This document shows positions 5,225-57,709 of a DNA stretch of 64,000 nucleotides, one piece after another (within the stretch, counting starts at the first letter, position 1; every line of letters begins with the position of its first letter). Source of the stretch: Diphasiastrum complanatum (taxonomy: Eukaryota; Streptophyta; Lycopodiopsida; Lycopodiales; Lycopodiaceae); assembly GCA_029204225.1 (NCBI GenBank), contig CM055113.1, forward strand, positions 26,864,995 to 26,928,994, given 5' to 3'. The notes under the pieces are model-generated. The model was not told the DNA's origin and searched no databases. It saw nothing but the letters and a program-made list of their open reading frames with translations. The position numbers and the translations under genes were made by a program.

Positions 5225-5738
<514 letters not shown>

Positions 5739-7766: not shown

Positions 7767-8006
7767 TCAAAAATTCTCAATCAGATCATTTGGATCTAGA
7801 GAAGCAGTCCTTCCAATCCTTGTATCTATTGGAGATGTTGTCGCATCCTGAATAACAATTTTTACAATTACATTATATCTTTGTTCAACCACCTCGGCCA
7901 GATCTCCTATGACCACCAACAATACCATTGGCAAGTGGTTGAGGCCCTTAACAAATGGAGTAATACCATCTTCACAGGGGCCCAACTTACTCACCTCTTG
8001 AAACTC
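7767..8006 (-). pseudogene. Methyltransferase-like gene, 3' part of exon 2 (beyond the insertion)
   Basis: This is the C-terminal end of the gene whose upstream part lies at 15357-15770. Removing the LTR element and one AACTC copy makes the two flanks read in one frame: ...VLPDEF from the right flank continues QEVSKLGPCEDG here and ends ...LDPNDLIENF, stop TGA at 7769-7767. The ~79 codons carry no motif I recognise. They follow the AdoMet-binding region and would be the family-specific tail. There is no stop or frameshift in this part. Confidence 0.6.
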
Positions 8007-9158
8007 TGTTGACAGATCCCCTGCTCCAGAGGACTTGTTGTCTACTTTTCTGCTTCTTGTTTACAGAACCGTTTCTGCCTGTTATCAGGCTTCATGGCAG
8101 TCGTTAGATGGTTTCTTGATTGATTTTACGATGCCAACCCAGGTAGACGGAAACAAAGTTTCGTTGTAGTATGTTTCTTTTGTCCTGCTTGTCAGAGGAC
8201 AACTCAGGGATTTCGCTCTTGAACGCACTTACATTCTACATGGATGCAAGCCAAGATTGCTCATTCACAGATCAACATACAAACCAATGAATGTTCTACA
8301 GATTCTACAGCTACCTACACTTAGAAAGGACTGAAATCAGAGCCTACACTACATTAACACTGAGCTACCTTGTATAACTTGACAAAAACAAGAAACAAAG
8401 CTAATCTACAACATGTTAGAAGTCCAAGAATCAAGAAACCAACCAGTCTATTGATTCTTGGACATCCCAAGAACATTGAGAACTGGATTGTACAGAGATA
8501 TGCAAGAATCACACCACAGATCCAGCCTATTTAGTTTACTTGAATGTTGGCTCCTACATTAATCCACAAGAAAACAAGAAATCTAATCCACAACTAGGAA
8601 AACAAGAAAACTAATCCACTCTAAATCCACAACCACACACAATATGAATGGAAGGGCATGATCATAGGGGCATCACTCAAGAAAACCATCATGATCAAGG
8701 AGCTTAGTGTAGTATCAAACTCATGAAAAATCTTCTTATTAAGCATGGAGTAGATACAATGCAAAAAGCTCCTCTTCACAAAGAGGGAGTCTCTTAAATA
8801 AGCAAGAGAGCTCCTTAGGTGGCATGTTAGTGGAATTTCCACATTTCACAAATTACAAGTGGAATATTGCTCTCCACTAGAGGTCACCATCAAAAGGTGG
8901 CTCACTCTACTTTCTTTAAGAGGGGTCTACTTGCATTTATTACATTTTTCTAGAAATACTAGCTCCTACATGGTCATTCCATCTTTCGAGATTCACCATG
9001 AGGCTTACACAGTTCTTGCATGTCTTTCCTAGCTAGTATTTCTCGGCTCTCACTCTTTATTAGTCTCGTCTTCTCAGAGACCTCCTCGGTCTAAGGTGAG
9101 AGGTGCTCTTGAGTTGCTCTGTCCAAGTATCTTGGGGATTCGTCAGAATCAGCCAACA
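8007..9158 (-). repeat. 3' LTR of the gag-only element
   Basis: 1152 bp, matching 14193-15356 from TGTTGACA to CAGCCAACA in plus sense. Confidence 0.9.
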
Positions 9159-9839
9159 TTATCCTACCCCTAAAGTGTTGCAGGACCCACTGCAACTCAT
9201 ATTGGACGATGTCGCTCTGCTTTGCAGTTTATGTCCCTTTTTTTTCCACTAGAGAGTTCTTGAACCACTTGTGATATATTTGGGGTGTTTATAATGATAA
9301 TTGTTACGTCCATGTCTTGCATGAAGGATTCGGAATAGTCCTTGACATGGATATTTGGTACTCTAGTGTACAAGATTATTAGTTACCCCACATCATTCTA
9401 GACTAGGCCAATAATGTAATTAATAAACTTGCGAGAAAAAGCGTAAATCCTAGTTCACTTACATAAAACCAAGTGCTTATTGTCGCCAGTCTTTATCACA
9501 AAAACTGTCTTTCACGAATTGCCACGATTGGATTAGAATGTCTTATTGCTATAGGTGGTTGACATTCTCAAATTTGGAAAGCTCCTAGCAACTTCATAAC
9601 TTGCATGCTCGAGTGCTTTCCTCATGTCTATTTGTTTAGTCACTTATATCTGCCATTGACGGTTTCATATTTGGTTTCTTGGCAGATTCCATCTTTGGTT
9701 TCTTCTGGGAGGTCTGTATCCTCCATTTGCCTCTGGGTATTTCCGTGGTTCTTCTCTCAGTTGAAGTTCCAGTCTTGTCGATGCTCTTTTCTGATAGGTA
9801 GCACAAATCTTGGTTATCAGTCTCAAGGGGATGGACTCA
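9159..9839. other. Internal region of the element, no clear coding
   Basis: From about 9294 the plus strand resembles, over ~140 bases, the start of the LTR at 52403 (TGTTAC.T.CATGTC, ACTCTAGT, TAATGTA.TTAAT). This may be a small diverged solo LTR nested in the element. No coding motif is visible in either strand. Confidence 0.35.
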
Positions 9840-10260
9840 TCATAAAAAATTGGGTGGTAGAAACAGTTTTGGCTGGACGGTTTGGTAATGGTGAGGAAAC
9901 ATGATGAAGGCTTGGTGACAAGGTGAAGAAACTGATAGTTCTACAATTGTAGCCTTGGACCCTTGCAATGTCGAGCTTCGACCACCACTTGCTGGGGCTT
10001 GCTTTATTTGCAGGTTCACGGATGTCTTCATCTTTCATTTTCTACAGCTCTTTCTTTTGATCCATTACTTTTGGATCTCTTTGGACTTCATAAGAGGGGA
10101 TTCAACTATCATCACTTCAGAGAGTTTTTTTTTTTATCAAGATCGATCTGACTCATCTGTTGCTTAAGTTTTGTCCTTTCCTCCTCAGCTTCCTAGATCT
10201 TTCTTTTTATTTCTTCTAGCTGCTTCGCCTGCTTTTGTAAGTCTTTTTCGGCTGAACAAC
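9840..10260 (-). pseudogene. Coiled-coil coding patch inside the gag-only element
   Basis: Minus-strand reading gives EKDLQKQAKQLEEIKRK, a TAG, then EAEEERTKLKQQMSQIDLD. This is a typical charged heptad-repeat coiled coil. After an A-run it continues in weaker frames to a 63-codon open stretch (10031-9840) rich in Ser/Thr/Gln. It does not resemble Pol. It may be an extra ORF of the element or a captured host fragment; the stops show it is dead. Confidence 0.4.
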
Positions 10261-10344
10261 CAATATAGGTGGTAGTTGGTCTCCACAAGACACTTGCAAT
10301 GATATATTGGCTGCTTCGATAAGACTATCAAAAACTGGAAATTT

Positions 10345-10787
10345 CTAAGAAGAACAGTAAACTGATGGTAAACAAACAGATGGAAGGGAGGGTGGTGGTG
10401 ACAACGGTAGATGGTGTGGACAATAGACATGAGAATGGGCGCAGAAGTATGGCAAGAGGTTGATTGAAGAAGGAGACTGATTTTCCAATGCTTGTGTTTC
10501 TCTTTCTGAAGGATCTTCATCGTGACTGGGGTACTTCTTCTGATCAAGTCGCTTTGGATTGCTCATCTGTCTTCTTAGCCTTGTCATTGTCAACTTTGGG
10601 TTTGTGACCTTGGATGTCGATCTTGCTGGTGTTGTTGCTGGCAGCGTAATTGCTCCAGTGGATCCAAGCAAATCCACTCTCTCCCCCCCCAAAAAAAAAT
10701 CAATTGGTGGAAATGTTGTTGTTGGTGATTGTTCATGCTCAGGATTGGATCGGCATGTAGAACACGTAGTTGAAACTCGTTGAACAT
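10345..10787 (-). other. Open stretch of uncertain coding status in the element
   Basis: Two overlapping minus frames cover this region. One reads TNPKLTMTRLRRQMSNPKRL then a charged SHDEDPSERETQALE segment. Low complexity (an AAC/CAA-rich stretch near 10700) and the absence of recognisable motifs leave its status open. Confidence 0.2.
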
Positions 10788-11669
10788 GTGGCTGGACTAA
10801 AGATTGAACAAATTTTAACTAAATTTGTTTCGATCTTGATGTAGTTGACTCAAAGAATAATATGGCAATGAGGTGCAAGAATCAACTCTAACTTGTCATG
10901 GATTTCTCATAGTTTTCAAAAATTTGAAACTACTGTACATGGTAATCTGAAGATGGATAGATGACTGAAAATGTGTTCTGGAGATGCTCTACATAAGACT
11001 CTCGTGCAGTAGCTATTCTTCATGCAAAAATCAATCACATAAAATAGGTGAAGAGAAACAAAGAAATAAACAAACATTACAGAGAGTGAGAACTGTATAG
11101 CACTTGTTGAACAAAACTGGCATTCATCAACATTGATAATGTACCTTGACAATTGCAATATTCCTCTTTTTTTGTCGAGTAATGTGACTTACTCTGACAT
11201 GCCCTTGTCAAAACAAGGTAGGGTGGATGACACTAAATCTATCATCATGGATAACAGATGTTGTAAGATACAACATGAGATGCAGGGATTATTGAGGTAT
11301 TACGTCCTGAGGACCTCTATGAACAAGAGAATCAGAACCAAATCTCTATCTGGATTTTCGAATCCGAGAAATATTATGTATTGGCACATTGGAAATCTTA
11401 TCAGCATATGGAAAGACAAATAGATTTGAGGTTGTAGAAGGGGAAAAAAATTGTCAATTCCCTATGGAGGTTGCTCTTGGTTGGACATTGTAGCAGATGA
11501 CGGAATATCAGTTTAACTTTCTTTCGACAAGGACTCATTTCATATTGTCTGTTTGCATTATGGTACTGGCGTATTGGACGGTGATGTAGGAGTTTACAAG
11601 AAAATTCTCGATCAAGCAGCAGGTTTAACTGCTAGTTGCTATGGTGCTCATGTTGTTGTCGTGAAGATC

Positions 11670-13133
11670 CTATTGTGATTCATAACTGATGTGACGGGCA
11701 GGTAGGATCTTAGCGTGTTGCTTTGGACAGTCTTTGAAATTGTGTTTTCTTATACAATCGGGACACTTAGGATGGTACTTGGTCTTGACTGGACAATCAA
11801 CCATGAAATGGCCAGTTTCACCACAGATGAAGCATCTGGTGTGCAGTGGCCCTTGCATTGCATAACCCTCTTGTATGGCTAGTGGGTCTGGACTTTCTGA
11901 TGGATAGTCTAGATAAGACAAGGCATTTCTAGATTGGGATGGGTGTTCTTCATATTGTTGAACTATATGTGCTTGGATAGGTCGATATGAAGGACAAGCA
12001 TCAATAGGATGCGTAGTCCGATAGTGTGGGCACCATATTGTTTTTTGTCTATAAGGTACCTGTGTAGGGTTTGACTGACCAGGCATACTGCCTTGGATAG
12101 ACTTCAGGGTATCTTGAAACTCATTGGTGAGTTTCTCCATCTGAAGTTGGTGTTTCTTATTAAGCAACGCCAGCTGTGATTTCCAAAGCTAATCTCGGGT
12201 GTCCTCGATCGGCTTCGACTCATGGACAGGAGCATGTGGTGCTTGCCTTTCCCTAGATTCGTCAATATCTGATCCTTCGTCTTCTTCCTTGATAGCATCA
12301 GACATAGCTAACTTTAGGCTCATATATTCATCATTGGATTTAAGCTCGCATCTAATCCATCTTGGAAGGCCGACTAAGAACCAGATGATGAGCATATGTT
12401 CAAAGGGCTGTTCTTGTACTTGACTTTTGAGACGTTTGAAACGCTCAATATAGTCTCATACTCGTTCGTCTTTTGTCATTTTGATAGTCCTTAGATTGAC
12501 AAAAGGGTTTTCTATCAAGCGAAATGGCTTGAAGCATTTGATAAAGGCCTCCTTCAAGAGTGACCAGTCACATTTATCTTCACGATCAAGGTTAAAAAAC
12601 CATTCTCGTGCTCAATCGATCATGGTCATCGAGAAGAGTTGAATCATGGTGTCGGGTGATGTCTCGCCATATACATCACATGCATTCTCAAAGATTTGCA
12701 AAAATCTTTGAGGGTACGCACTACCGTCAAACTTTGGTAGATCTAGCCTGGGTGTACGTCTTTCAAGATGAGCTCCGTGGGTAGTAGAGACTCCATTAAG
12801 GTTGGTTTTGGCCTGTGAGGGGTCAGCACCATAAAAACGGGGTCGTGCACATGAAGACTCAGCTCTATCAGGTTCTTGTCCATTGAACGGGTTTGTGGAT
12901 GGCTCTTGGAGTTTGGCTCTCATTCGATAGAACCTATGACGTCTTATTTGTTCAGCTATTGATATCATATGGATAATCTTCTGGGATTTCAGGATCTGTA
13001 TGCTGGTGGTGGTCCATTGGGTACTAGGGTATGAGTTTCTAGTATCGATGGTTTTTTGGAGTTTTTGATTTTTTAGGATTTTTTGTGTTTTTGGATATTT
13101 CTGAGTTTTTAAGGAAGTCAAGGGAAAACTCAA
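11670..13133 (-). pseudogene. Gag with zinc knuckle (gypsy type), three in-frame stops
   Basis: One minus frame holds the whole protein: a retrotransposon Gag core (LPKFDGSAYPQRFLQIF, AREWFFNL, DYIERFKRLK, GLPRWIRCEL), an acidic linker (IKEEDEGSDIDESRE), a helical MEKLTNEFQ region, a CPHYRTTHPIDACP motif and a CCHC knuckle CFICGETGHFMVDC. Stops are TGA at 12614-12612, TGA at 12458-12456 and TAG at 12191-12189, with no frameshift. The second falls where related Gags read Arg (V-R-DYIERF), consistent with CGA to TGA. The related Gag at 23711-24531 shows the same order of motifs. Confidence 0.8.
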
Positions 13134-13295
13134 TATGAAAAGAGCTTTCTATTGGTATGGGTGTTGTGTTTTGAAAAAAATTTGGTATTCATGCCCTTTG
13201 GTTTTTTTTTTTTTTTTTTTTCTAGTCTCGAAGGTGTTGTGAAGATGGTGGTTCAGTTGAAATGGCAACTAGAGGTGTTGATCAAAAGTTATGGT

Positions 13296-13960
13296 CCGGT
13301 CGAGATTGGGTGTTAATTACTTCGGTCGAGATTTGATCTGCTTGCTCTGGTCGAGATTTGATCTGATTGCTTCGGTTGAGATCTGATTGAATCCCTTTGG
13401 TCGAGATTTGATCGCTGCTCCAGTGAGATTGGACCTGATAGCTTCGGTTGAGATCTGATCGAATCCCTCTGGTCGCGATTGCTCTGGTCGAGATCACTTC
13501 GGCTTCGATCGAGATCTGAACGGCCACTTTGGTCGAGATTCCAGCGAGCAGTTCGGCTCCGGTCGAGATCTGAACGGCCACTTCGGTCAAGATTCCAGCG
13601 AGCAGTTCGGCTCCGGTCGAGATCTGAGCGGCCACTTCGGTCGAGATCTCAGCAAGCACTTCGGCTGAGATTCCAGCATGAGCTTCGGTTGAGATTTTAC
13701 TGAGAGCTCCGGTTGAGATGTGAGCATGAGCTCCGGTTGAGATTTTACTGAGAGCTCCGGTTGAGATGTGAGCATGAGCTCCGGTTGAGATTTTAATTTT
13801 TTTTTTTGTTTTTTTTTTTGATGCACCTGCGTTGCGTCGGTCAAGATGGTGAGAGAGAGGCTTGGCTGAGATGGAAGAGAAGGTGTTCGGTTGAGACGTG
13901 AGAGAAGGTGCTCGGCTGAGATGGAAGAGAAGGTGTTCGATTGAGACATGAGAGAGGGTG
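13296..13960. repeat. Minisatellite near the 5' LTR of the gag-only element
   Basis: All units share a core like TCGGTTGAGAT / CCGGTCGAGAT. The clearest part is three ~54-bp units at 13514-13672 (GATCTGAACGGCCACTTCGG...). A second part alternates GTGAGCATGAGCTCCGGTTGAGA with a TTTTACTGAGAG form (48-bp period, 13675-13795). The long frames here are repeats, not genes. Confidence 0.8.
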
Positions 13961-14192
13961 CTCGGTTGAGATGGTGACAGAGGGAGGTGGAGACGATGGG
14001 TAAGCTATGGGTAGAGGATGATGTAGAAGGAGATGAGGATGTATGTAGGGCGTGGGGATGGTGTGTGCAGGTCGTTCTGAGCTATGAACGGATCTGGAGA
14101 CATTTCAGATTGCGTGCATGGGTCCGATCAAAGATAGTCTTGCAACATATGCCATTTCAGAATGTGAGTGATGCAAGCGGCAAATGGTCAAA

Positions 14193-15356
14193 TGTTGACA
14201 TATCCCCTGCTCCAGAGGACCTATTGTTTACTTTTCTACTTCTTGTTTACAGAACCGTTTCTGCCTGTTATCAGGCTTCATGGCAGTCGTTAGATGGTTT
14301 CTTGATTGATTTTATGATGCCAACCCAGGCAGAAGGAAACAAAGTTTTGTTGTAGTATGTTTCTTTTGTCCTGCCTGTCAGAGGACAACTCAGGGACGTC
14401 GTTCTTGAACGCACTTACATTCTACATGGATGCAAGCCAAGAACGCTAATTCACAGATCAACATACAAACTAATGAACGTTCTACAGATTCTACAGCTAC
14501 CTACACTTAAAACGGACTGAAATCAGAGCCTACACTACATTAACACTGAGCTACCTTACATAACTTGACAAAAACAAGAAACAAAGCTAATCTACAACAT
14601 GTTAGAAGTCCAAGAATCAAGAAACCAACCAGTCTATTGATTCTTGGACATCCCAAGAACATCAAGAACTGGATTGTACAGAGATATGCAAGAATCACAC
14701 CACAGATCCAGCCTATTTAGTTTACTTGAGTGTTGGCTCCTACATTAATCCACAAGAAAACAAGAAATCTAATCCACAACTAGGAAAACAAGAAAACTAA
14801 TCCACTCTAAATCCACAACCACACACAATATGAATGGAAGGGCATGATCATAGGGGCATCACTCAAGAAAACCATCATGATCAAGGAGCTTAGTGTAGTA
14901 TCAAACTCATGGAAAATCTTCTTATTAAGCATGGAGTAGATACAATGCAAAAAGCTCCTCTTCACAAAGAGGGAGTCTTTTAAATAAGCAAGAGAGCTCC
15001 TTAGGTGGCATGCTAGTGGAATTTCCACATTTCACAAATTACAAGTGGAATATTGCTCTCCACTAGAGGTCACATCAAAAGGTGGCTCACTCTACTTTCT
15101 TTAAGAGGAGTCTACTTGCATTTATTACATTTTCCTAGAAATACTAGTTCCTACATGGTCATTCCATCTTTCGGGATTCACCATGAGGCTTACACACTTC
15201 TTGCATGTCTTTCCTAGCTAGTATTTCTCGGCTCTCATACTCGGCTCTCAGTCTTCATTAGTCTCGTCTTCTCGGAAACCTCCTCGGTCTAAGGTGAGAG
15301 GTGCTCTTGAGTTGCTCTGTCCGAGTATCTTGGGGATTCGTCAGAATCAGCCAACA
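14193..15356 (-). repeat. 5' LTR of the gag-only element
   Basis: 1164 bp. It carries a 12-bp local duplication (TCATACTCGGCTC region, ~15237) that is absent from the 3' LTR. Confidence 0.9.
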
Positions 15357-15770
15357 AACTCATCAGGCAAAACTAAAATGCCAGCTAACCTCATTTTAAT
15401 AGAACTTTCTAAACTCTCAACTAATTCTAAAGCCGCAACATGTTTGCCCTTTTGGACAACACTTGCACTAGTTGTGCGACTACCACTAAATAAATCTAAA
15501 ATCCAATCCGTAGGATGAGAAAACATTTCAATTAATTTATTTACAAGTTGTTGTGGTTTTTGACATGGGCAAGCCACAGAACCAGTCTTTGGAGTTTTTA
15601 GGTTTTTTGTCATTGTAGAAAAATTAAAATGATTTGCATAACTTGTGCTCCCTATAGTGTTGTAGTGCAACATGGATCTCTTTTCATTAGTAGAGAAGTA
15701 ACTGATGGTGATATATTCGATCTCATTATAGAGACGTGCACCACCAAAATTGTGCACATTTGGCTTGTAC
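15357..15770 (-). pseudogene. DNA amino-methyltransferase-like gene, exon 2 (5' part)
   Basis: Begins after acceptor TTTGTAG at 15770 and reads YKPNVHNFGGARLYNEIEYI, then a PCQKPQQLVNKLIEMFS segment, HPTDWILDLFSGSRTT, and KHVAALELVESLESSIKMRL. In N4/N6 amino-methyltransferases the pattern is W.KPN....G...E.I, then QKP..L...LI, then the AdoMet loop LD.F.GSGTT, then an acidic residue at the next strand (here LEL). This exon fits, except that the loop reads GSR where G is usual (GSRTT). The catalytic region comes first and the AdoMet loop last, the beta-class order. The exon is cut at 15356 by the LTR element and resumes at 8006. Target base and substrate cannot be told from sequence. Confidence 0.7.
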
Positions 15771-15872
15771 CTACAAACATTGAAAGCAAATAGTCAGACA
15801 AACAAATAACAAAAATGTTCAAATTAAAATCACTTGTAAATGTATACATATTTGGTTACAATCAATACTTAC
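15771..15872 (-). other. Intron of the methyltransferase-like gene
   Basis: 102 bp, starting GTAAGT and ending TTTGTAG on the minus strand. Exon 1 ends with TG (phase 2) and exon 2 starts with G, restoring a Trp codon, so that VIW-YKPN reads through. The splice-phase match is strong support for a real eukaryotic gene. Confidence 0.65.
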
Positions 15873-16153
15873 CAAATGACATTTTCTATCCATGTATTGC
15901 AGACTTCCAATAGGGCCTTGTGGACACCTACTTGTTGCCAACTGGAGTGAAATATTACTATCCTCCAAAGCGGAACTGTAGTGATCTTCAAAAAGACAAC
16001 AACAACGTCTTTGACTTATGTGTATTTAAATGGGCGATTATCATTCAGGGACTCTTCAAGCTTGAACCCGTATGGAATGCCAGTGATGCAAAGGATGTAA
16101 GGTCTTCTTTTTACAAACTTGGAGATCTCTCTGGCATCATTTTGTTGTATTGT
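15873..16153 (-). pseudogene. DNA amino-methyltransferase-like gene, exon 1 as found (one stop)
   Basis: After a TTTTTAG acceptor-like site the minus strand reads ISKFVKRRPYILCITGIPYG (G-IPYG aligns with the catalytic [DNS]PPY motif IV, here with a substituted first residue), then FKLEESLNDNRPFKYT, a TAA at 16018-16016, and ITTVPLWRIVIFHSSWQQVG followed by HKALLEVC and IENVIW at the donor. The order catalytic motif, VIF.S.W, viW.KPN is typical of these enzymes. The stop and the non-consensus motif IV suggest an inactive gene, unless the stop region is an unrecognised intron edge. The plus strand is also open over this stretch, so confidence rests on motifs and splice phase. Upstream exons were not found. 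Confidence 0.55.
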
Positions 16154-16199
16154 CTAAAAACAAGCTAGAAAGGAGCTCTCCATTGAGTATTCTTATGTA

Positions 16200-16575: not shown

Positions 16576-17257
16576 TGTTAAAAATTCACAATTCTAGCTT
16601 GACTAGTTTTGGTCATATGACTTGTAAATAGTTAAATGGTCATGATGTGGCTTGTCACACGTGCCAAATAGCATAGGATTCCATTCATAAGGATGTTCTC
16701 AAGTAGACCTAAGTGTTAGAACCTTTGGAATGAGTCCAAATTATGCTTAGATACAAGGGAGAAAAAATAGGAGCTATTTTTGGTAATTTTTGCATTGTTG
16801 AGGGATCTCCAAGATTCCAACCCTAACTTGGTAGGGATGAAAGATCCACCAAAATTAGAATTAGGGATAGGTTTAGGGCTACTCATACCTGCCCAAAACC
16901 GTGATGGATCTTGTATATATAGGTGATGATATCTCACCAAAATCAATCAAGCAATTTCATGATTTTTCTCTCATAATGGTGCAATTGCTCTCTATGTTCA
17001 TAATTGTTTGAGTACTTGTGATTACTAATGATTATAGGATTGAATGTAGGTCTGGTGTACAGTACTCAGACTGTGGGAGGCCGTACTTTCACACGTGTTA
17101 AGCCTTCTTCAAGGATTTGGGCCATTTAGTGAGGTTCAAGCATAGATTTTTGATGGATTTTGATGGTTCAACTTGTGCTAATCTTATGAAATCATAATCT
17201 ATTGTTTCCCTCATCATTTCAAGTGTTTTAGGATCCTTATTTGCTGTAATTTTTACA
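16576..17257 (+). repeat. 5' LTR of the intact copia
   Basis: 682 bp, TGTTAAAAATTC...TTTTTACA. It contains a TATA-like GTATATATAG at 16913-16922 and a CACACGTG palindrome near 17090 beside GTAC motifs. Confidence 0.97.
16913..16922 (+). promoter_or_regulatory. LTR TATA box
   Basis: GTATATATAG in the 5' LTR, repeated at 22389-22398 in the 3' LTR. It is the only strong TATA-like site in the LTR and would start transcription around 16945-16955. Confidence 0.55.
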
Positions 17258-17269
17258 TGGTATCAGAGC
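17258..17269 (+). promoter_or_regulatory. Primer-binding site (initiator Met-tRNA)
   Basis: TGGTATCAGAGC directly follows the LTR end. This is the standard plant copia PBS, complementary to the 3' end of initiator methionine tRNA. Confidence 0.95.
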
Positions 17270-18068
17270 CTAAAGGCTGAAATGAGCTAAATCCTTGGTT
17301 TTCATTCAATTTGATCACAATTTTTGATCTAAATCTTGTGTAGATTGGATCTTAGCATCTAGTATTGATTCTAGAACTCAAAGTGAGTCAAATACATTGG
17401 AGATTGGTGTTGTGTGACTTCATTTGCAGGTGTTTAGGTGTCTAAAACCAGAGGCAAAGTTGAATTCAATTCACATTACCAAGATAGCAAGTTTTGCTTG
17501 CTCCAAGCATTGATTTCTAAGCGAGTTTTGGAGGTGATTTCATAGAGAAGGCTTTCTAGCATTCAAGGAGAGGGAAGATCAGAGTTTTGGGGACTCTTCA
17601 AGGCTGTTCTAAGGTGTAGTAGGCACCTCCTAAAGTGATTTAGGTTCAGTCCAACCATTGCTTGACTTATGCACCAAATTAGATCAATTTTTCATCAATT
17701 TTGATCATTTTTTGCTTGTGATTGGATAGTAGATTGTGTTGCATCCTCATTAAGTTCCATTTAGATCTTTTACAAGTGATTTTGGAAGTATATTAGGTTG
17801 CTGAAATTCACTCTTGATCAGATCATTTGGAATCTTTAATGTTCTTTATAGAAAGAGAGGCAATTCTACTAGTATTGTCTACTTCAATCAAGCAAGTGCA
17901 TTGTTTCTAGTATTCTATGATTTGATTTTGTTAGAGATCATTCTTAGATCTTTATAGGAAGTCTATTACTGATATTTTCAGGTCCCTAAGAAGTGGGATA
18001 AGGTAGACCTTCAATCAAATCAATAGAAGTAACCTTCATTTGTGTCAAGTCCTTGATTAGGAGACTAG
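17270..18068 (+). other. Untranslated leader of the intact copia
   Basis: About 800 bases between PBS and the gag ATG. No substantial open frame is seen in this strand. Confidence 0.8.
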
Positions 18069-21000
18069 ATGACATCTATAAATGCATATCTTTTGGATAC
18101 TAATGAAAGGCTCAACAAAACTAACTATTCCATATGGAAAGTTAGAATGGAATCTATCATGATCATGCAAGATCTGATGGAAATTGTAAATGGTAAGGAG
18201 GGTGAACCTATTCATCCTCAAGAAAAAGCCAAATACATCAAGAGGTGCAATGTTGCACTACATTGCATAAAAATGAATGTTGCAAATGAACTCTTAAGAG
18301 AGGTAGGAGATTGCACTTCAGCTCAAGATGCTTGGGAGACTTTGCAAAAGGTCTATGAATCCAAGAACCAAACTAGAATGTTAGCTTTGAAGAATCAAAT
18401 CTATAGAAGCTATCAAAAGAAAGGAGAGAGTGCACATACTTTTGTCCTAAGAGTAAAGGAATTGAACAAAGAGCTAGCCTTTATAGGTGACCCTATCAAG
18501 GATGAAGAGCTTGTTCAACTCATATTGAATGGACTAAGCTTTGAATTTGACAATTTGGTTCAGGGATATGCAATTATGGGTAAGCTACCCATACTTGAAG
18601 AACTCCAAGGCACACTCATGGCCGAGGAATCAAGAAGGAGCCAAATGCAAGAGAGGATGGATAGGCTTTCCATCCAAGGTGGAGATGACCAAGCTCTCTT
18701 CACCAAAGGCAAAGGCAAGTCCAAAGGCAAAGGATCAACATTCAAGAAGTCTACAAAGCTTGAGGATCAAGAAGGACCCTCAAAGGCATCTCCATCAACC
18801 ACCAAAGTCAAGAAGGACAAATCAAAGGTGAAGTGCTACTATTGTAGCAAGATGGGGCATTATGCCTCGGAATGCTTCAAGAGGAAGCAAGATCAAAGCC
18901 AAGCCAACATGAGCAAAGAGGAGGAGGAGGAGAGTTCACATGAGGACTCTCTCATGATGTCCATATTTTCCTCAACAAGCTTCAAAGGAGAAGATCCTTG
19001 GTGGATTGACTCGGGTGCTAGTTCACACATGACTAGTAAAAGGGAGTTTTTCTCTTCTCTCTTATCTTATGATGGACCTATAAAGTCTATCTATACAGCA
19101 AATGATGAAGCTTGTAAGATTGAAGGAGTTGGTAGAATTCCCCTTTGCTTAGGATCTTCCAAAAAGATCAACATAGAAGGTGTTTTGTACATTCCTACAA
19201 TAACAAAGAATCTACTAAGTGTTGGCCAAATGGTAGACAATGGTTTCAATGTTGACTTTGCTTCAAATGAATGTTTCATCAAGAAGAAGGGTAAGATAGT
19301 GGCTAAGGGCACTAGACTTGGCAAACTTTATAAGTTGGATGCATTTGTGGATACTAATGTTGTCATGTTGGCCGAGAAGAGCAAGATATCTACTTTTACT
19401 TTATGGCACAAAAGACTTGGACATGTCAACTCGGGTTCCATGGAGGCTATGATCAAGGAGGAGTATGCTTTAGGCCTACTAAGGTCTATTGGGAAGGAAG
19501 ACAAGGTTTGTGAAGTTTGTGCCTTATCCAAGGCACATAAGAAGGTGTTTCCTAACTCCATCACAAAGTCATCTCATCCTCTTGAACTCATACACTCGGA
19601 TGTGCACATTGCTAGCACCAAATCTAATGGAGGTTCATCCATGTTTTTAACCTTCATTGATGACTACTCAAGATATTGTTGGGTGTTCTTACTTTCCTTC
19701 AAGTCTCAAGTATTTGATACTTTTGTAAAGTTCAAGTTGTTTGTGGAAAAGCATCATAATCATAGCATCAAGATTCTTAGAAGTGACAATGGTGGACAAT
19801 TCATCTCCAATGAGTTCAAGGCCTTTTGTGAGGAGGAAGGGATCAAGAAAGAGACTTCTTGTCCTTACACTCCTCAAGAAAATGGAGTTGCTGAAAGAAG
19901 GAATAGAACATTATGTGAATGTTCTAAGGCTTTAAGATTAGATGCTTGTTTGCCCAAATCCTTTTGGGGTGAGTCTCTTGTATGTGCAAACTACTTGATG
20001 AATAGGGTGTCTTGCAAAGCAATTGAAGGCAAAACTCCTTATGAGATGTTGTATGGAAAGAAACCCAATCTTAATCACTTGAAAGTTTTTGGGTGTATAT
20101 GTTATGTGCATGTGCCATTGGAAACAAGAACCAAGGAGGATCCATCTTCCACAAGAGGGATCATGCTTGGATATGCAAGCTCAAGAAAGGGCTACAAAGT
20201 CTATCTCCCATCCTTGAACAAATTTGTTGTTTCAAGGGATGTCATCTTTGATGAACATCATATGCATATGCTTGAAGAAGGCTCAAGTGCTCCAACAATC
20301 AAGAAGAAGATGGCCGAGGATCAAGATCTTGGTTTTGAGGAGGAGCTCATGGAGGAGCAAGCACCAAACCCACCTATCACACCAAGGAGATCTTCAAGGG
20401 CAAAAGTGGAGCCATCAAGGCTCACATATCAAGGCAAAGGACAGCAAGTTGAGGGTATCTCATCCACTTCTTATGCTTTATCTAGTTTCAAAGAACCATC
20501 TAATGTTGAAGATGCATTGCACTCCAAAGAATGGTATAAAGCTATGTTGGATGAGTATGATGCCTTGATTGAGAATGAAACTTGGTTGCTTGTTGAGAGA
20601 CCTCAAAGGAATGTAATAGGATGCAAGTGGGTCTTCAAGCTTAAGTTGAATGCAAATGGGAGTGTTAACAAACATAAAGCAAGATTAGTTGCAAAAGGCT
20701 ATGCTCAAGAGAGAGGGATAGACTATGAGGAAAATTTTGCACCCGTGGCCAAGATGGTCACAATAAGACTAATCATTGCACTTGCATCACATTTTGGATG
20801 GATTCTATGTCAAATGGATGTCTCTAATGCTTTCTTGAATGGTTTTTTGGAAGAGGATATCTATATGGAGCAGCCACAAGGGTTCATCAAGCATGGAATG
20901 GAGAACAAAGTATGCCATCTCCAAAGAAGCATCTATGGCTTGAAGCAAGCCTCAAGATCTTGGAATTCAAGACTACATTGCTATCTTATTTCACTTTCTT

Positions 21001-22037
21001 TTGTTCAAAGTGAATATGATCCCACTCTTTACATTAAGTTTGATGATGTTGGTATTGTACTTTTACTCATTTATGTAGATGACATCATCATTAGTGGAAA
21101 TAGTGTTGATGGTATTGAAAAAATCAAGATAGATCTATCCTTAGAGTTCAAGATGGTAGATCTAGGGTGTCTTCACTTCATCTTAGGCATAGAAGTACTT
21201 AGAGGGTCTGATTTTATCTTTATAAGTCAAGTAAACTATGCTCAAAGTCTTTTGAAGAAGTTTAAGATGGAAGTATGCAAAAGTGTTGACACACCAATGG
21301 AGCAAGATGTAAAAGTGCCAAATGAAGATGATGAAAGATCCTTCATGGACATCACTTTGTTTAGGCAACTTATAGGTTCCTTAATGTGGATCACTATAAC
21401 TAGACCAGATCTTAGCTTTAGTGTATGTAGGTTGAGCCAATCCATGCAAAAGCCATTGAATATCCATTGGAAAAAGGCTAAGAGGATTCTAAGATACATC
21501 TCGGGTACATTGGATTTTGGGATTCTATATAGAGGAGATGTGATTAACCTTCATGCATTTAGTGATTCAGATTTTGCAGGGGACAAGAGGGATAGGAAAT
21601 CAACAAGTGCCTATTCAACTTTCATAGGAGAAGGTGTGGTTTCATGGCTTTCAAAAAAGCAAGAAACTATATCTCTATCTTCAACCGAGGCCGAGTACAA
21701 AGCTTTGACAACCACTACAAAGGAGGTACTTTGGATCAAGAGATTATTGGTGGAACTAAAGATCATGGATTCAGAGGAGGCACCAATCATCTACAATGAC
21801 AATATATCAGCCCAACACCTTGCATCTAACCCAATCTTCCATGCAAGATCTAAGCACATTGAGATATGCCATCACTTTGTGAGAGAAATGGTGCAAGCCA
21901 AGGAGATTGCTTTGGAGCATGTTCCAAGCAATGAATGTGTAGCTGATCTACTTACTAAACCACTTCAAAGGACACCTTTTATGAAGTTCAGATCATCACT
22001 TGGAGTGATTAGTAAAGCAATGATTGAACCAAGCTAG
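18069..22037 (+). CDS. Copia Gag-Pol polyprotein (1322 aa, intact)
   Basis: Encodes all proteins of a Ty1/copia element in one frame. Gag occupies roughly residues 1-290, with L..TNYS.WK.RM at the start and a CCHC zinc knuckle C256-C259-H264-C269 preceded by a Lys/Gly/Ser-rich basic stretch. Protease: WWIDSGASSHM with catalytic D314. Integrase: zinc-binding H447, H452, C481, C484 and core D511, D573, E609, exactly D35E spacing. Reverse transcriptase: about 850-1095 with YVDD at 1002-1005. RNase H: about 1160-1310 with D1166, E1207 (SSTEAEY) and D1244 (YNDN). The order integrase before RT defines copia. It acts in cytoplasmic virus-like particles and then in the nucleus to integrate cDNA. Length matches complete plant copia polyproteins, and no stop or frameshift is present. 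Expression would start from the LTR TATA. Confidence 0.97.
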   Translation: MTSINAYLLDTNERLNKTNYSIWKVRMESIMIMQDLMEIVNGKEGEPIHPQEKAKYIKRCNVALHCIKMNVANELLREVGDCTSAQDAWETLQKVYESKNQTRMLALKNQIYRSYQKKGESAHTFVLRVKELNKELAFIGDPIKDEELVQLILNGLSFEFDNLVQGYAIMGKLPILEELQGTLMAEESRRSQMQERMDRLSIQGGDDQALFTKGKGKSKGKGSTFKKSTKLEDQEGPSKASPSTTKVKKDKSKVKCYYCSKMGHYASECFKRKQDQSQANMSKEEEEESSHEDSLMMSIFSSTSFKGEDPWWIDSGASSHMTSKREFFSSLLSYDGPIKSIYTANDEACKIEGVGRIPLCLGSSKKINIEGVLYIPTITKNLLSVGQMVDNGFNVDFASNECFIKKKGKIVAKGTRLGKLYKLDAFVDTNVVMLAEKSKISTFTLWHKRLGHVNSGSMEAMIKEEYALGLLRSIGKEDKVCEVCALSKAHKKVFPNSITKSSHPLELIHSDVHIASTKSNGGSSMFLTFIDDYSRYCWVFLLSFKSQVFDTFVKFKLFVEKHHNHSIKILRSDNGGQFISNEFKAFCEEEGIKKETSCPYTPQENGVAERRNRTLCECSKALRLDACLPKSFWGESLVCANYLMNRVSCKAIEGKTPYEMLYGKKPNLNHLKVFGCICYVHVPLETRTKEDPSSTRGIMLGYASSRKGYKVYLPSLNKFVVSRDVIFDEHHMHMLEEGSSAPTIKKKMAEDQDLGFEEELMEEQAPNPPITPRRSSRAKVEPSRLTYQGKGQQVEGISSTSYALSSFKEPSNVEDALHSKEWYKAMLDEYDALIENETWLLVERPQRNVIGCKWVFKLKLNANGSVNKHKARLVAKGYAQERGIDYEENFAPVAKMVTIRLIIALASHFGWILCQMDVSNAFLNGFLEEDIYMEQPQGFIKHGMENKVCHLQRSIYGLKQASRSWNSRLHCYLISLSFVQSEYDPTLYIKFDDVGIVLLLIYVDDIIISGNSVDGIEKIKIDLSLEFKMVDLGCLHFILGIEVLRGSDFIFISQVNYAQSLLKKFKMEVCKSVDTPMEQDVKVPNEDDERSFMDITLFRQLIGSLMWITITRPDLSFSVCRLSQSMQKPLNIHWKKAKRILRYISGTLDFGILYRGDVINLHAFSDSDFAGDKRDRKSTSAYSTFIGEGVVSWLSKKQETISLSSTEAEYKALTTTTKEVLWIKRLLVELKIMDSEEAPIIYNDNISAQHLASNPIFHARSKHIEICHHFVREMVQAKEIALEHVPSNECVADLLTKPLQRTPFMKFRSSLGVISKAMIEPS

Positions 22038-22040
22038 ATA

Positions 22041-22051
22041 GTGAGGAGGAG
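22041..22051 (+). promoter_or_regulatory. Polypurine tract of the intact copia
   Basis: GTGAGGAGGAG immediately before the 3' LTR (TG at 22052). It primes plus-strand DNA synthesis. Confidence 0.85.
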
Positions 22052-22733
22052 TGTTAAAAATTCACAATTCTAGCTTGACTAGTTTTGGTCATATGACTTG
22101 TAAATAGTTAAATGGTCATGATGTGGCTTGTCACACGTGCCAAATAGCATAGGATTCCATTCATAAGGATGTTCTCAAGTAGACCTAAGTGTTAGAACCT
22201 TTGGAATGAGTCCAAATTATGCTTAGATACAAGGGAGAAAAAATAGGAGCTATTTTTGGTAATTTTTGCATTGTTGAGGGATCTCCAAGATTCCAACCCT
22301 AACTTGGTAGGGATGAAAGATCCACCAAAATTAGCATTAGGGATAGGTTTAGGGCTACTCATACCTGCCCAAAACCGTGATGGATCTTGTATATATAGGT
22401 GATGATATCTCACCAAAATCAATCAAGCAATTTCATGATTTTTCTCTCATAATGGTGCAATTGCTCTCTATGTTCATAATTGTTTGAGTACTTGTGATTA
22501 CTAATGATTATAGGATTGAATGTAGGTCTGGTGTACAGTACTCAGACTGTGGGAGGCCGTACTTTCACACGTGTGAAGCCTTCTTCAAGGATTTGGGCCA
22601 TTTAGTGAGGTTCAAGCATAGATTTTTGATGGATTTTGATGGTTCAACTTGTGCTAATCTTATGAAATCATAATCTATTGTTTCCCTCATCATTTCAAGT
22701 GTTTTAGCATCCTTATTTGCTGTAATTTTTACA
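22052..22733 (+). repeat. 3' LTR of the intact copia
   Basis: 682 bp, identical to 16576-17257 except three substitutions. Confidence 0.97.
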
Positions 22734-26016: not shown

Positions 26017-26249
<233 letters not shown>

Positions 26250-52402: not shown

Positions 52403-52850
<448 letters not shown>

Positions 52851-55079
52851 TGTGGCTTAGGGGTGAGACTATTGGAGATTGATTAGTGACTTCTCGTAGG
52901 TTGGGTGGTTTTGCTCCATGGTGTGATCTCGTGTGTTTGTCTTCTAAGCAGGATCATTGGTTGTGAATCCTTTTATGGGAGGCACTTATTACTGACTTTT
53001 CATGGATTTAAATATTTTCATGTATCATCTCTTAGACTAATTTTTATAACAAATATAGAAATTTCTTCAAAAGGAAGGGTGAAGTAATGGGTAAAAGTCT
53101 TAAAAAAAAATGTATCAATTGTATAGTTTTTGAATGAGACCCAATTGTGGTATAGAAATGTGATTTTTTGAAAGTCTTTCTAGACAAATCTAGAGTAAGA
53201 TGGAACTTTTTGAATAAGATAAATTCTCTAGAGATTGTGTGGAACAATCTGGAACTATATGTGATTTGAAATTTGAATCATCGTTTATAAATAGTACAAG
53301 GAAAGGTCAAAAGTTACTAGTTCCATTTTGGTTGAAATAGGACTAAGCTTGATCGGAATATTGGACTTGGAATGTCTGTATTAGATCAACTTGATCCTAG
53401 TTTGAGTACTAGGATTAGGGAGATGTTGATTGAGTTGAAGAAATTATGTTGTAAGAGGTAAGTTGGGTTGGAAAACTCATGAGAGTGGATATGTTCTTCA
53501 TCTCAAAGGTTTCCTATATATGCTATTTACTCATGAGGAATAAGATTCTATGGTAGTTGAGCTACAAGATTCTCAATGAGATATGTGAGTAACATATGCA
53601 GATTTTGGAGGAATTTATGTACGAGATCATAGTGAGATTATTCTCATATGTGCATGATTAATCTTGTATGGATGAACTATGTATTCCTGGTTACTAGGTT
53701 TATTTGCTGCACTTAAATTAGTCGATGAACATAGACATATGATCAAGTATTGTTTGAAAAAATACTTGTTTAGTTGACAAATCTTTTTATGGAGATTTAT
53801 TTTTTAGCTTAGAAATGATTTGGATAAGAATCTAAATGTGTTGTTGTACTAGTACAATTGAGATTTGCACTTGGACATTTAAGATTTGTGAATCATTGGC
53901 AATTCGCTTGAGTAGCTGCATTACTCTAGCATAAAATTCATTTCTAGAATGATCATTGTGAAGATATTTCACCAAAAACTATTTGTTTTGAGTTATATTG
54001 CTTATAAGACGCATGATTTGCGAGTCTTTGGGATTCACTAGTAAAAATTATGTGCATAGGACAAGTAGCATTTTTGGTATAGAGTATTCCTCAGTTGAGG
54101 AGTATTAGTGATTATATCCCAGAGAGCTCAATCGAATATCAAATTTTAATGATTTCAAAAATGACAACTGAATTTATATTCAGCAGAGAACTTTGGGTTT
54201 CTAGATTCAGTTCTCTATGGTAATCTAAAGTTTTTTGTAGTTGAAGATGGTTATTAGTATCATTTGGTATGCTTTCTATCTTTAATTACCTATGGCATAT
54301 AGAACTTTAATATATTGCATTTTTTATTAAGAATTCAGTTTGGAGAATATCTTTCAAATCCAGTTTATTTTCCTAGTGAAAAACATTCTGGAATAATTCA
54401 TTAGAGGGATGTTCCAAATCCAAGAAAGACCCTATGAGGATTGCCACGTAGGCTACTTGAGTCATAAACTCGGGTAGCCAAGTATACTAAAACTAAAAAA
54501 ATATAGACCATAAATGTCAACAAAAAAAAAATAGTGTGAGAAGATTCTTAAAAAAACAAAATTAAAGTGGGAGCTATGAAGAATAGGAAAAATCTAGCTT
54601 GATCATTTTGCAGTTTCATGTAAATATTGATATCACACATGTGTTGATCATGTTCCTACATGTGGAGGGTAGGCATAATCACTTTAGTGCATTTATGTCA
54701 AGCTTGAACAATCCATAGGTCTTAAACTTGAGGTTTGGGAGTCCTCTATCAAAACCACTCATTGTACACTTGTAATTATGTGATTAGGCCAAAATTAGAC
54801 TTGGATTAGCTCATGATAGTGTAGGTTTCTTACACTTAGCTCGATGTAGAGGGCTAGTGACATTGCACCTCATAATCTCATTTGTCAATATGGACCAATC
54901 ATAGTGAAAGTGCAACAAAATGGTCGAATCAATATAAGAAATGGCATGTAAGTGGTTAGAGCAAATTTAGACTTGGATATCATCACATATGATTTTGCAA
55001 TTCATGCTAAAATTGTTACCATATTATTTGATATTATTGTTTTCCTTATCAATATTTAATATCTGACTTTTTGTTACAG
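52851..55079. other. Non-coding interval upstream of the DGNHR gene
   Basis: AT-rich, many stops in all frames, no element hallmarks. It may hold introns or earlier exons of the gene starting at 55080; I could not identify any. The last bases (TTTTTGTTACAG) form a good splice acceptor. Confidence 0.5.
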
Positions 55080-55744
55080 CAAGGAGAAACAATTTTTGAA
55101 GACTATTCTATGGGTGCAACTGAAGTTGGAGAGATATTGGATGTTGGTGGCACAGACCAAGATCATAGTGTGGCTGAGGTTGAGACTGAGGTAAAAAAGA
55201 GAGTCAAAGGGGTGAGACCAGATGAAATCGGTGCTTTTCCTTTGCCATTTCATTCGGATATTTTATCAACAACCCTTGCTTGTTTTAGAGTTCAACGTCA
55301 GTCTCCTCCACCACTAGTGCCATTGTGTTGCATTTTGGAACACAAAGCTATCAGAATTGTTGGAGGGCAATGTATGAAACTAAAGGAGATTTATGGGCAT
55401 GATGGCTATATCATGGAAAAGGGTGACTTCATGATATCTATCACAAGATCCAATGGCGAATCTGTTTACATGAAAGATCATTCAAAATCTCAATGGGATA
55501 ACATTTGGGAGAAAATAAGCTTGGACTTTGATGCCATGGTTTTGCTCGATCCCGAATGGAGTGATTTGCATGGCTGTATGTTTGTGTGTTGGGATGGAAA
55601 CCATAGGTTGTCGACATGGATGGAGGCGATACATGAGGAGTATGCCAATGATATAGGCAAGCATATACTAGTGCATGCCAGTTTCATTCAGCCGGATGCA
55701 GAGACTGGCATGACCCTGCTATCTTCTATGAACCGGATCAATAG
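55080..55744 (+). pseudogene. DGNHR (ParB/sulfiredoxin-like) gene, exon A
   Basis: Opens after acceptor TTTGTTACAG and runs 221 codons without a stop to a GT donor (AATAG/GTGACA), phase 2. An acidic/low-complexity start (VAEVETEVKKRVKG) is followed by ALPFHSDI-type sequence (GAFPLPFHSDILSTTLACFR), IRIVGGQCMKLKEIYGHDGY, GDFMISITRSNGESVYM and FVCWDGNHRLSTWMEAIHEE. A hydrophobic strand followed by DGNHR then a helix is the signature of ParB/sulfiredoxin-fold domains (D-G-x-H-R), which in known proteins bind or hydrolyse nucleotides and often accompany DNA methyltransferases. The assignment rests on this one motif. The open length and the splice sites show a former or present real gene. Confidence 0.5.
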
Positions 55745-55925
55745 GTGACATTTTTTTTATTTTTCTTGGATGCTTATTTGAGTTGGTGTTGTGTTTTCCA
55801 TGTCGCTACTCTCCATGTAATCTGTGTATTCTTAGGCTAAATGAAATTGGTGTAATAAAAATAGAGCTAGGAGACCAACTTTATAGTGTGCATCGACTAT
55901 GCGAGTGCAACATCGACTTCTTCAG

Positions 55926-56046
55926 GTAGAGGATCTCTCCCGCTGACCTCACTAAGGTGGAGAGAATTAGAGCAGTAGAACTCAAGAGGGGGAACATTAG
56001 GTGGTATCCCTTGATGAGATATATGCTGGCCTGCATATTGTATGAG
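55926..56046 (+). pseudogene. DGNHR gene, exon B (one stop)
   Basis: Acceptor CTTCTTCAG at 55925. One base completes the codon left by exon A, and the frame then meets TAG at 55927-55929 and reads RISPADLTKVERIRAVELKR, GNIRWYPLMRYMLACILYE, ending phase 0 at GAG/GTAATT. Both phases fit exons A and C, so the stop looks like a later mutation. Confidence 0.5.
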
Positions 56047-56144
56047 GTAATTTAGCATTTCATTAAGACATGTGCTACATTTTTTATGAAACATAGTATT
56101 GGTTTGAGCACTAATTGGGAAATAAATCTTTGTGTTTTGTACAG

Positions 56145-56411
56145 AATGACATAAATTCGGAGTTGGATAAAGCTAGAAACAAGTTTCAATCAGGGCAAGA
56201 TAAGGCCCACAAGACCTTGAAGGATGCTGACGGGGTGGAGTATGCCAGGTGGACCACCAAAATGGATAAGATATTTAGAGTTGTCAACCCATTGCTTGGT
56301 AAGGAGTGGTTTGAGCTTGTTACTAGCATAGAACATTCGGGCATGGGAATCTTCCTTGGCTTGGAAAAGTTGCATCACTTGTGTTGCTCCACAGTGTCCA
56401 ATGAAGTGTAA
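56145..56411 (+). pseudogene. DGNHR gene, exon C
   Basis: Starts after TTTTGTACAG, phase 0: NDINSELDKARNKFQSGQDK, then WTTKMDKIFRVVNPLLGKEW and FELVTSIEHSG, ending at TAA 56409-56411. A GTAAAT donor overlaps the stop. Mostly helical and charged; no catalytic motif. Its junction with exon D is unresolved. Confidence 0.45.
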
Positions 56412-56715
56412 ATGGCTGGGTTGGTGCATGGGACCCATATCCGGGCAGTTCGGAATCCCAAAGAGTGACAAGGATTTTAGGATATGGGTAATGGGGAGAC
56501 ATGGTTGGAGCACCTAAAGGACACATCCCTCAATGCTCTAATGGAATGTTTGGCTTTGAGTAGGTGTTTTAAAACAACTGACATTTTCGTGACATTTTTA
56601 TGCTACTCTTAAACTTTGCGTAGTTTCTATGTAACAAAGTTGGAGTGTGGACCCTTAACAGAATAATATATTAAAGTTGAATTCATATTGACTTGGATGT
56701 TGTATCATTTTTTAG

Positions 56716-56871
56716 GGCCAATGGATATTCAAGGATGTCCATCTATGGAGGAGTATTTTACTGATTTCAAACTTCTAAATCAAAAAAATGTTCCATGCCA
56801 TACAGAAAGACATGGAGTTGTCAAAGGGTGCGACAGAACAACCAGACATCCGTAGAGCTACAAAAAGGGTG
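56716..56871 (+). pseudogene. DGNHR gene, exon D (frameshift)
   Basis: After TTTTTTAG it reads PMDIQGCPSMEEYFTDFKLL, then a frame change at an A7 run (56782-56788), then MFHAIQKDMELSKGATEQPD and IRRATKRV at donor GTG/GTATGG (phase 0). The A7 run is a likely slippage site. Confidence 0.4.
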
Positions 56872-56936
56872 GTATGGAGGTTTTCTATTCATTCAACACT
56901 GATTATATTGTGGGTATTTTTTGGATTGGAATTTAG

Positions 56937-57466
56937 AAGCATATGCTCATAGCTATTGAAACACATGTATTATTCATATCTTGTATCACTAAAAAAGGTG
57001 GTGCAACTACCAGCCTTTTTAAACTATGGCTGAATAAAGATGACAAGGAGTCATTTATGTACTTTCATAACCAGAGAAATGATTGGGAGGTGCAAAATAA
57101 TCCTTGGTGGATTGATTTTCCTAGTGGGACATGCCCTTCCAAAGAGACAAAACTATTCAAACAACATCAGAGAGGTACATTGCGTGTAGAGCTGATTATT
57201 GTGGATGTGGGTATCACAGAGCTTGAGGAGAGTTCCACTCTTGAGACCCGACTCAATGATACAGGAGGGCAGGAGCCAATGGCCCCAAAATAGCGGTTCT
57301 TAAAGAGCAACGCAAGGGCAAAGAGATTGCGGTTGAGGAGATCATAGAGGATTTGCTAGATGATCTTCGGCCAAGTTCACTTCGTCCAGCGAAGCACACC
57401 GTGATTAGCTGAGAGGAGTACGAGTTCTTGACTCCCAAACCATATGGTGCGGCCCAAGGGATTAAG
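56937..57466 (+). pseudogene. DGNHR gene, exon E (frameshift and stop)
   Basis: After GGAATTTAG, phase 0: KHMLIAIETHVLFISCITKK, LWLNKDDKESFMYFHNQRND, NNPWWIDFPSGTCPSKETKL, RVELIIVDVGITELEE, TAG at 57291. The frame shifts near 57260-57290 and continues PKIAVLKEQRKGKEIAVEEI, then IEDLLDDLRPSSLRPAKH, TGA at 57410, EEYEFLTPKPYGAAQGIK at donor GTATGC. The opening KHMLIAIE resembles the post-motif-I strand of amino-methyltransferases (compare KHVAALE at the 15357-15770 locus), but the AdoMet loop itself is not present. A further helical stretch DATKTLSVALQEIVGHLKTI (about 57596-57657) may be another exon. Confidence 0.45.
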
Positions 57467-57709
57467 GTATGCCCTTGCCCTTGTTTTTTCCTATAGCATT
57501 GTAGTTTTAGTAGCCATGTTTTTGGTCTGCAATGTCATACTTACTCATGCTTGTTACTTAGTTGTTTACTTTGTGTGGAGATGTGTTGGAGATAGTAGTG
57601 ATGCAACAAAAACATTGTCTGTGGCATTACAAGAGATAGTGGGCCACCTGAAGACAATTTGTTCGGGTAATATGCCTCTTTTTATAGCATCTCATGCAAA
57701 AAAATAGCA

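Follow-up and report, generated by a model that had tools for sequence, protein, structure and literature searches.

A probable beta-class DNA amino-methyltransferase pseudogene, split by an LTR element, in Diphasiastrum complanatum

A gene remnant lies on the minus strand of a 64,000-nucleotide stretch of the Diphasiastrum complanatum genome (contig CM055113.1), the whole of which was analyzed and is called the window here. Exon 1 (15873-16153, minus strand) contains the start of a catalytic domain (NDAREI), a motif IV region (IPYG), and a motif V/VI region, with a TAA in frame at 16018. The 5' part of exon 2 (15357-15770, minus strand) contains YKPN, QKP, LDLFSGSRTT (a decayed motif I), and KHVAALE. 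Between the two lies a spliceosomal-type intron of 102 nt (15771-15872, minus strand, GTAAGT..TTTGTAG), and the Trp codon that it splits confirms the proposal of an earlier note on this DNA that two minus-strand exons flank a GT..AG intron with matching phases. Removal of the intron yields IENVIW followed by YKPNVHNFGGARLYNEIEYI, which aligns with the Caulobacter adenine methyltransferase CcrM across the junction, where IW joined to YKPN corresponds to VWRKSN of CcrM.

Downstream, the gene is split by an LTR element (8007-15356), as had been claimed earlier; the element has paired LTRs (8007-9158 and 14193-15356) and is flanked by a target-site duplication, AACTC, at 8002-8006 on the left and 15357-15361 on the right. 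The LTRs are 1152 and 1164 bases long; 1151 of their sites align, with 31 transitions and 7 transversions, which gives a distance of 0.034. The element carries a minus-strand frame with a zinc knuckle, and reverse transcriptase was absent from the seven internal frames tested. Repeats of 24 bases stand in tandem within it at 13502-13819. Excision of 8007-15356 together with one AACTC opens the frame of exon 2 into 7767-8006, in agreement with the earlier note. Because both AACTC copies read in one frame, the 79 codons at 7767-8006 (minus strand), which end in a stop, continue exon 2 as a 3' coding tail. When mononucleotide shuffles were read in one chosen frame each, with no correction for that choice, 2 of 20000 left exon 2 open and 48 of 20000 left the tail open. 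Searched alone, the tail gave neither a Pfam match nor any other family match.

At the other end, the reading frame of exon 1 is open from 16153 on, immediately behind TTGTTTTTAG. These bases read as a plausible splice acceptor, and 16153 may therefore be the 5' border of an exon and not the start of the gene; for the same reason, an earlier exon probably existed, although none was recognized upstream of the remnant. Alternatively, a frameshift could account for this border, as another minus-strand frame that overlaps exon 1 and extends upstream of it is open from 16349 to 16140. That frame is either a coding remnant or a chance opening; a family search with it returned no match, and it may be chance. 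A frameshift at 16155 was not counted as an additional lesion because the preceding bases look like a splice acceptor. Upstream, 423 bases from the exon 1 border, starts a young Copia element (16576-22733, plus strand), absent from the earlier note, with LTRs at 16576-17257 and 22052-22733 and a GATTT duplication. Its LTRs are 682 bases each and differ at 3 sites, and its gag-pol frame (18069-22037) is uninterrupted over 1322 residues; the element was probably active recently. It may stand between the remnant and a promoter or additional 5' exons.

To identify the family, the spliced product, with X at the stop, was compared with Pfam. The joined exons matched N6_N4_Mtase (PF01555) at an E-value of 1.9e-13 (51.3 bits, against a gathering cut-off of 26.7), a significant outcome of the comparison that the earlier note had proposed; GCHY-1 was the sole other Pfam row and fell under its cut-off. 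Exon 2 by itself matched PF01555 at 1.1e-11, and exon 1 by itself had no Pfam match. The best PHROG was a DNA methyltransferase (E = 5.5e-11). The earlier note held that a better match for an overlapping plus-strand frame would overturn the assignment, and this challenge fails because the plus-strand frames at 15914-16168 and 15222-15515 give no Pfam match; both were rejected as real genes on that ground.

To test the assignment further, we built an HMM from 46 relatives found in phages, plasmids, and viral contigs, leaving the query out, and scanned with it every six-frame stop-to-stop segment of 20 residues or more that the window contains, 2016 in all. Exon 2 alone was significant (E = 7.9e-19). 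Second in rank, at a non-significant 0.18, came the opening part of exon 1, and the second part of that exon, at 24, was within noise; reversed control segments reached 0.027 at best. No further methyltransferase copy was significant among the 2016 segments. Most of the relatives had been retrieved with a pattern containing query residues, and the Pfam value is for that reason the more independent of the two.

These profile matches bear on the reading that takes the remnant for a bacterial contaminant or for a frame open by chance. Its domain is of bacterial type, as that reading expects, but E-values of 1.9e-13 (Pfam) and 7.9e-19 (blind HMM), the presence of an intron, the LTR elements within and next to the gene, both with target duplications, and the distance of the bacterial relatives seen make it extremely improbable.

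Motif IV precedes motif I in the remnant, the order found in 8 of 8 aligned prokaryote or phage relatives, which bears out the beta-class order described in the earlier note. From these results, we conclude that the remnant is very probably a pseudogene of a beta-class DNA amino-methyltransferase with the N6_N4_Mtase fold; counting against this explanation are the non-significance of exon 1 alone and a tail that lacks homology. In the intact parent enzyme, S-adenosylmethionine would have been bound through motif I (FSGSGTT type), and a DNA base would have been flipped out and its exocyclic amino group methylated through motif IV (xPPY type).

This copy has lost the features of an active enzyme, in which a catalytic xPPY and a G-rich SAM loop are expected. 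Its motif IV is GIPY, without an acidic or Ser residue, whereas motif-pattern scoring of 51 relatives gave DPPY in 38, SPPY in 7, DPPF in 4, and DIPY in 2. The SAM-binding loop is GSR here and GSG in all eight aligned relatives. The earlier note based its view that the gene is dead on the GSR loop and on the TAA at 16018, and both are present. Judged from its sequence, with an in-frame TAA, a decayed motif IV, and an Arg in the SAM loop, the copy is dead and would make no working enzyme. Motif IV is also too decayed to reveal either the target base or its own ancestral residue. At motif IV, two phage methyltransferases from viral contigs (L030 and L044) read DIPYG instead of DPPYG; their IPYG letters match those of the remnant, the tree groups neither with it, and both adjoin other methyltransferase frames in tandem.

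Among named families and solved structures, CcrM was the nearest. The best NCBIfam model was the CcrM equivalog (NF050803), whose curated cut-off of 830 bits lies far above the 43.6 bits of the remnant. The best structure was CcrM itself (PDB 6pbd, E = 1.2e-8), in an alignment that spans the splice junction and covers query residues 58-223, including VW.K.N..NF.G.R..N.E and QKP; the N4-cytosine enzyme PvuII matched at only 0.069 in the PDB search. The beta-class order is common to CcrM and the remnant. Unlike CcrM, the remnant has an intron, its motifs IV and I are decayed, and its score lies far under the CcrM model cut-off.

Searches of phage, plasmid, viral, and prokaryote sequences revealed no close relative, the plasmid and alignment-based viral scans being judged among the matches listed. 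At E <= 0.01, 36 phage records matched, the longest among the matches listed having 26% identity over 66% of the query. Plasmid matches came to at least 5000 records, the longest among those listed covering 72-74% of the query at ∼27% identity; shorter stretches among the listed matches reached 39% identity over 33% of the query in plasmids and 56% over 36 residues in a viral contig. One scan each of viral_contigs and genome_contigs with a back-translated peptide pattern found no close relative, and an alignment-based scan of viral_contigs found at least 45 viral loci, all distant. Identity to six aligned relatives was 20-25%.

For a tree, two of 53 loci (L036 and L040) were dropped for lack of a usable frame, and 46 passed a length and motif filter, giving 47 rows with the query; the same 46 made up the HMM. 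The query had the longest end branch (2.5). It paired with a viral row, L020 (98/90), the two grouped with the CcrM-like rows L001 and L007 and the viral row L010 (97/76), and the query fell outside a seven-row SPPY group (99/94). This placing is given little weight because the program flags long rows as unsure in place.

The Copia and other LTR elements, together with the intron, point to plant nuclear DNA. The intron of the remnant indicates that such a gene was present in the host line, and a horizontal or ancient origin in the plant is plausible. A bacterium or phage would have been the source from which the lineage came into the nuclear genome, early enough to gain an intron. The CcrM matches in NCBIfam and PDB, and the pairing with L020 beside CcrM-like and viral rows, speak for a gene transfer unconnected with the liverwort DN4MT1, the source being a CcrM-like or a phage enzyme. 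We hold this reading as possible but doubtful, since the branch is 2.5 long with its place flagged as unsure, leaving room for an artefact of decay, the fork to the CcrM-like rows is supported at 97/76, and identity to the six aligned relatives is 20-25%. Arrival with an endogenous large DNA virus is quite improbable: although chloroviruses are described in a passage of PMC7248222 as rich in DNA methyltransferases, the gene has an intron, two scans of viral_contigs found no close relative (the second among the matches listed), and retroelement parts were the sole viral genes recognized among the ORFs tested.

Captured 4mC enzymes are known in eukaryotes from Marchantia and bdelloid rotifers (sections of PMC8885841 and PMC12344493; for Marchantia also PMC8566409), and one of these three sources cites, for early-branching fungi, a prokaryotic 6mA enzyme. 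With these three groups as the cases named in those sections, prokaryote-type amino-methyltransferases seem rare in eukaryotes. The Marchantia proteins DN4MT1a/b, compared here by their description in parts of PMC8885841 and PMC8566409, are plant amino-methyltransferases of bacterial origin; unlike them, the gene found here is dead. That publication of a bacterially derived Marchantia 4mC methyltransferase, and the bacterial-type amino-methyltransferase domain of the remnant, are consistent with the remnant being a decayed member of the plant 4mC family exemplified by Marchantia DN4MT1, a family that plants whose sperm swim may have retained. Such kinship is, to the same degree as the separate transfer, possible but doubtful, as the profile and the structure that come nearest among named ones belong to CcrM-type 6mA enzymes, the tree places the remnant outside the SPPY group (weakly, on a very long branch), and the decayed motif IV gives no decision on the target base. 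The bdelloid rotifer N4CMT, as described in portions of PMC8885841, resembles the remnant in being eukaryotic, in having introns, and in its PF01555 domain. It has SPPY where the remnant has GIPY, and a C-terminal chromodomain where the 79-codon tail of the remnant has no Pfam match.

Whichever its origin, the remnant is an ordinary pseudogene of a kind of gene that is uncommon in eukaryotes. It is functionless itself, and its significance is that the host line once held such a gene; it hints at an intact parent. We consider it unlikely, though conceivable, that it marks a second, independent CcrM-like capture in a non-liverwort plant lineage, and that intact copies bearing introns exist elsewhere in the genome and write 6mA or 4mC.

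Elsewhere in the window, a run of exon-like open frames extends over 55032-57500 on the plus strand, including a 238-residue ORF with a DGNHRL motif and others at 56115-56411 and 56937-57293. Searches of Pfam, of PHROG with the first ORF, and of PDB with one piece gave no significant match. The frames also had no match to an HMM of eight ParB-methyltransferase fusions from viral contigs, and their similarity to the remaining window was limited to chance-level pieces. On these results, the idea was dropped that the methyltransferase gene had an N-terminal ParB-like part in the frames at 55.0-57.6 kb; they are possibly an unknown or decayed gene. Rfam and tRNA scans of the whole window gave no match. 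Three GA/CT dinucleotide arrays, each longer than 130 bases, lie at 5439-5572, 26022-26247, and 52714-52845.
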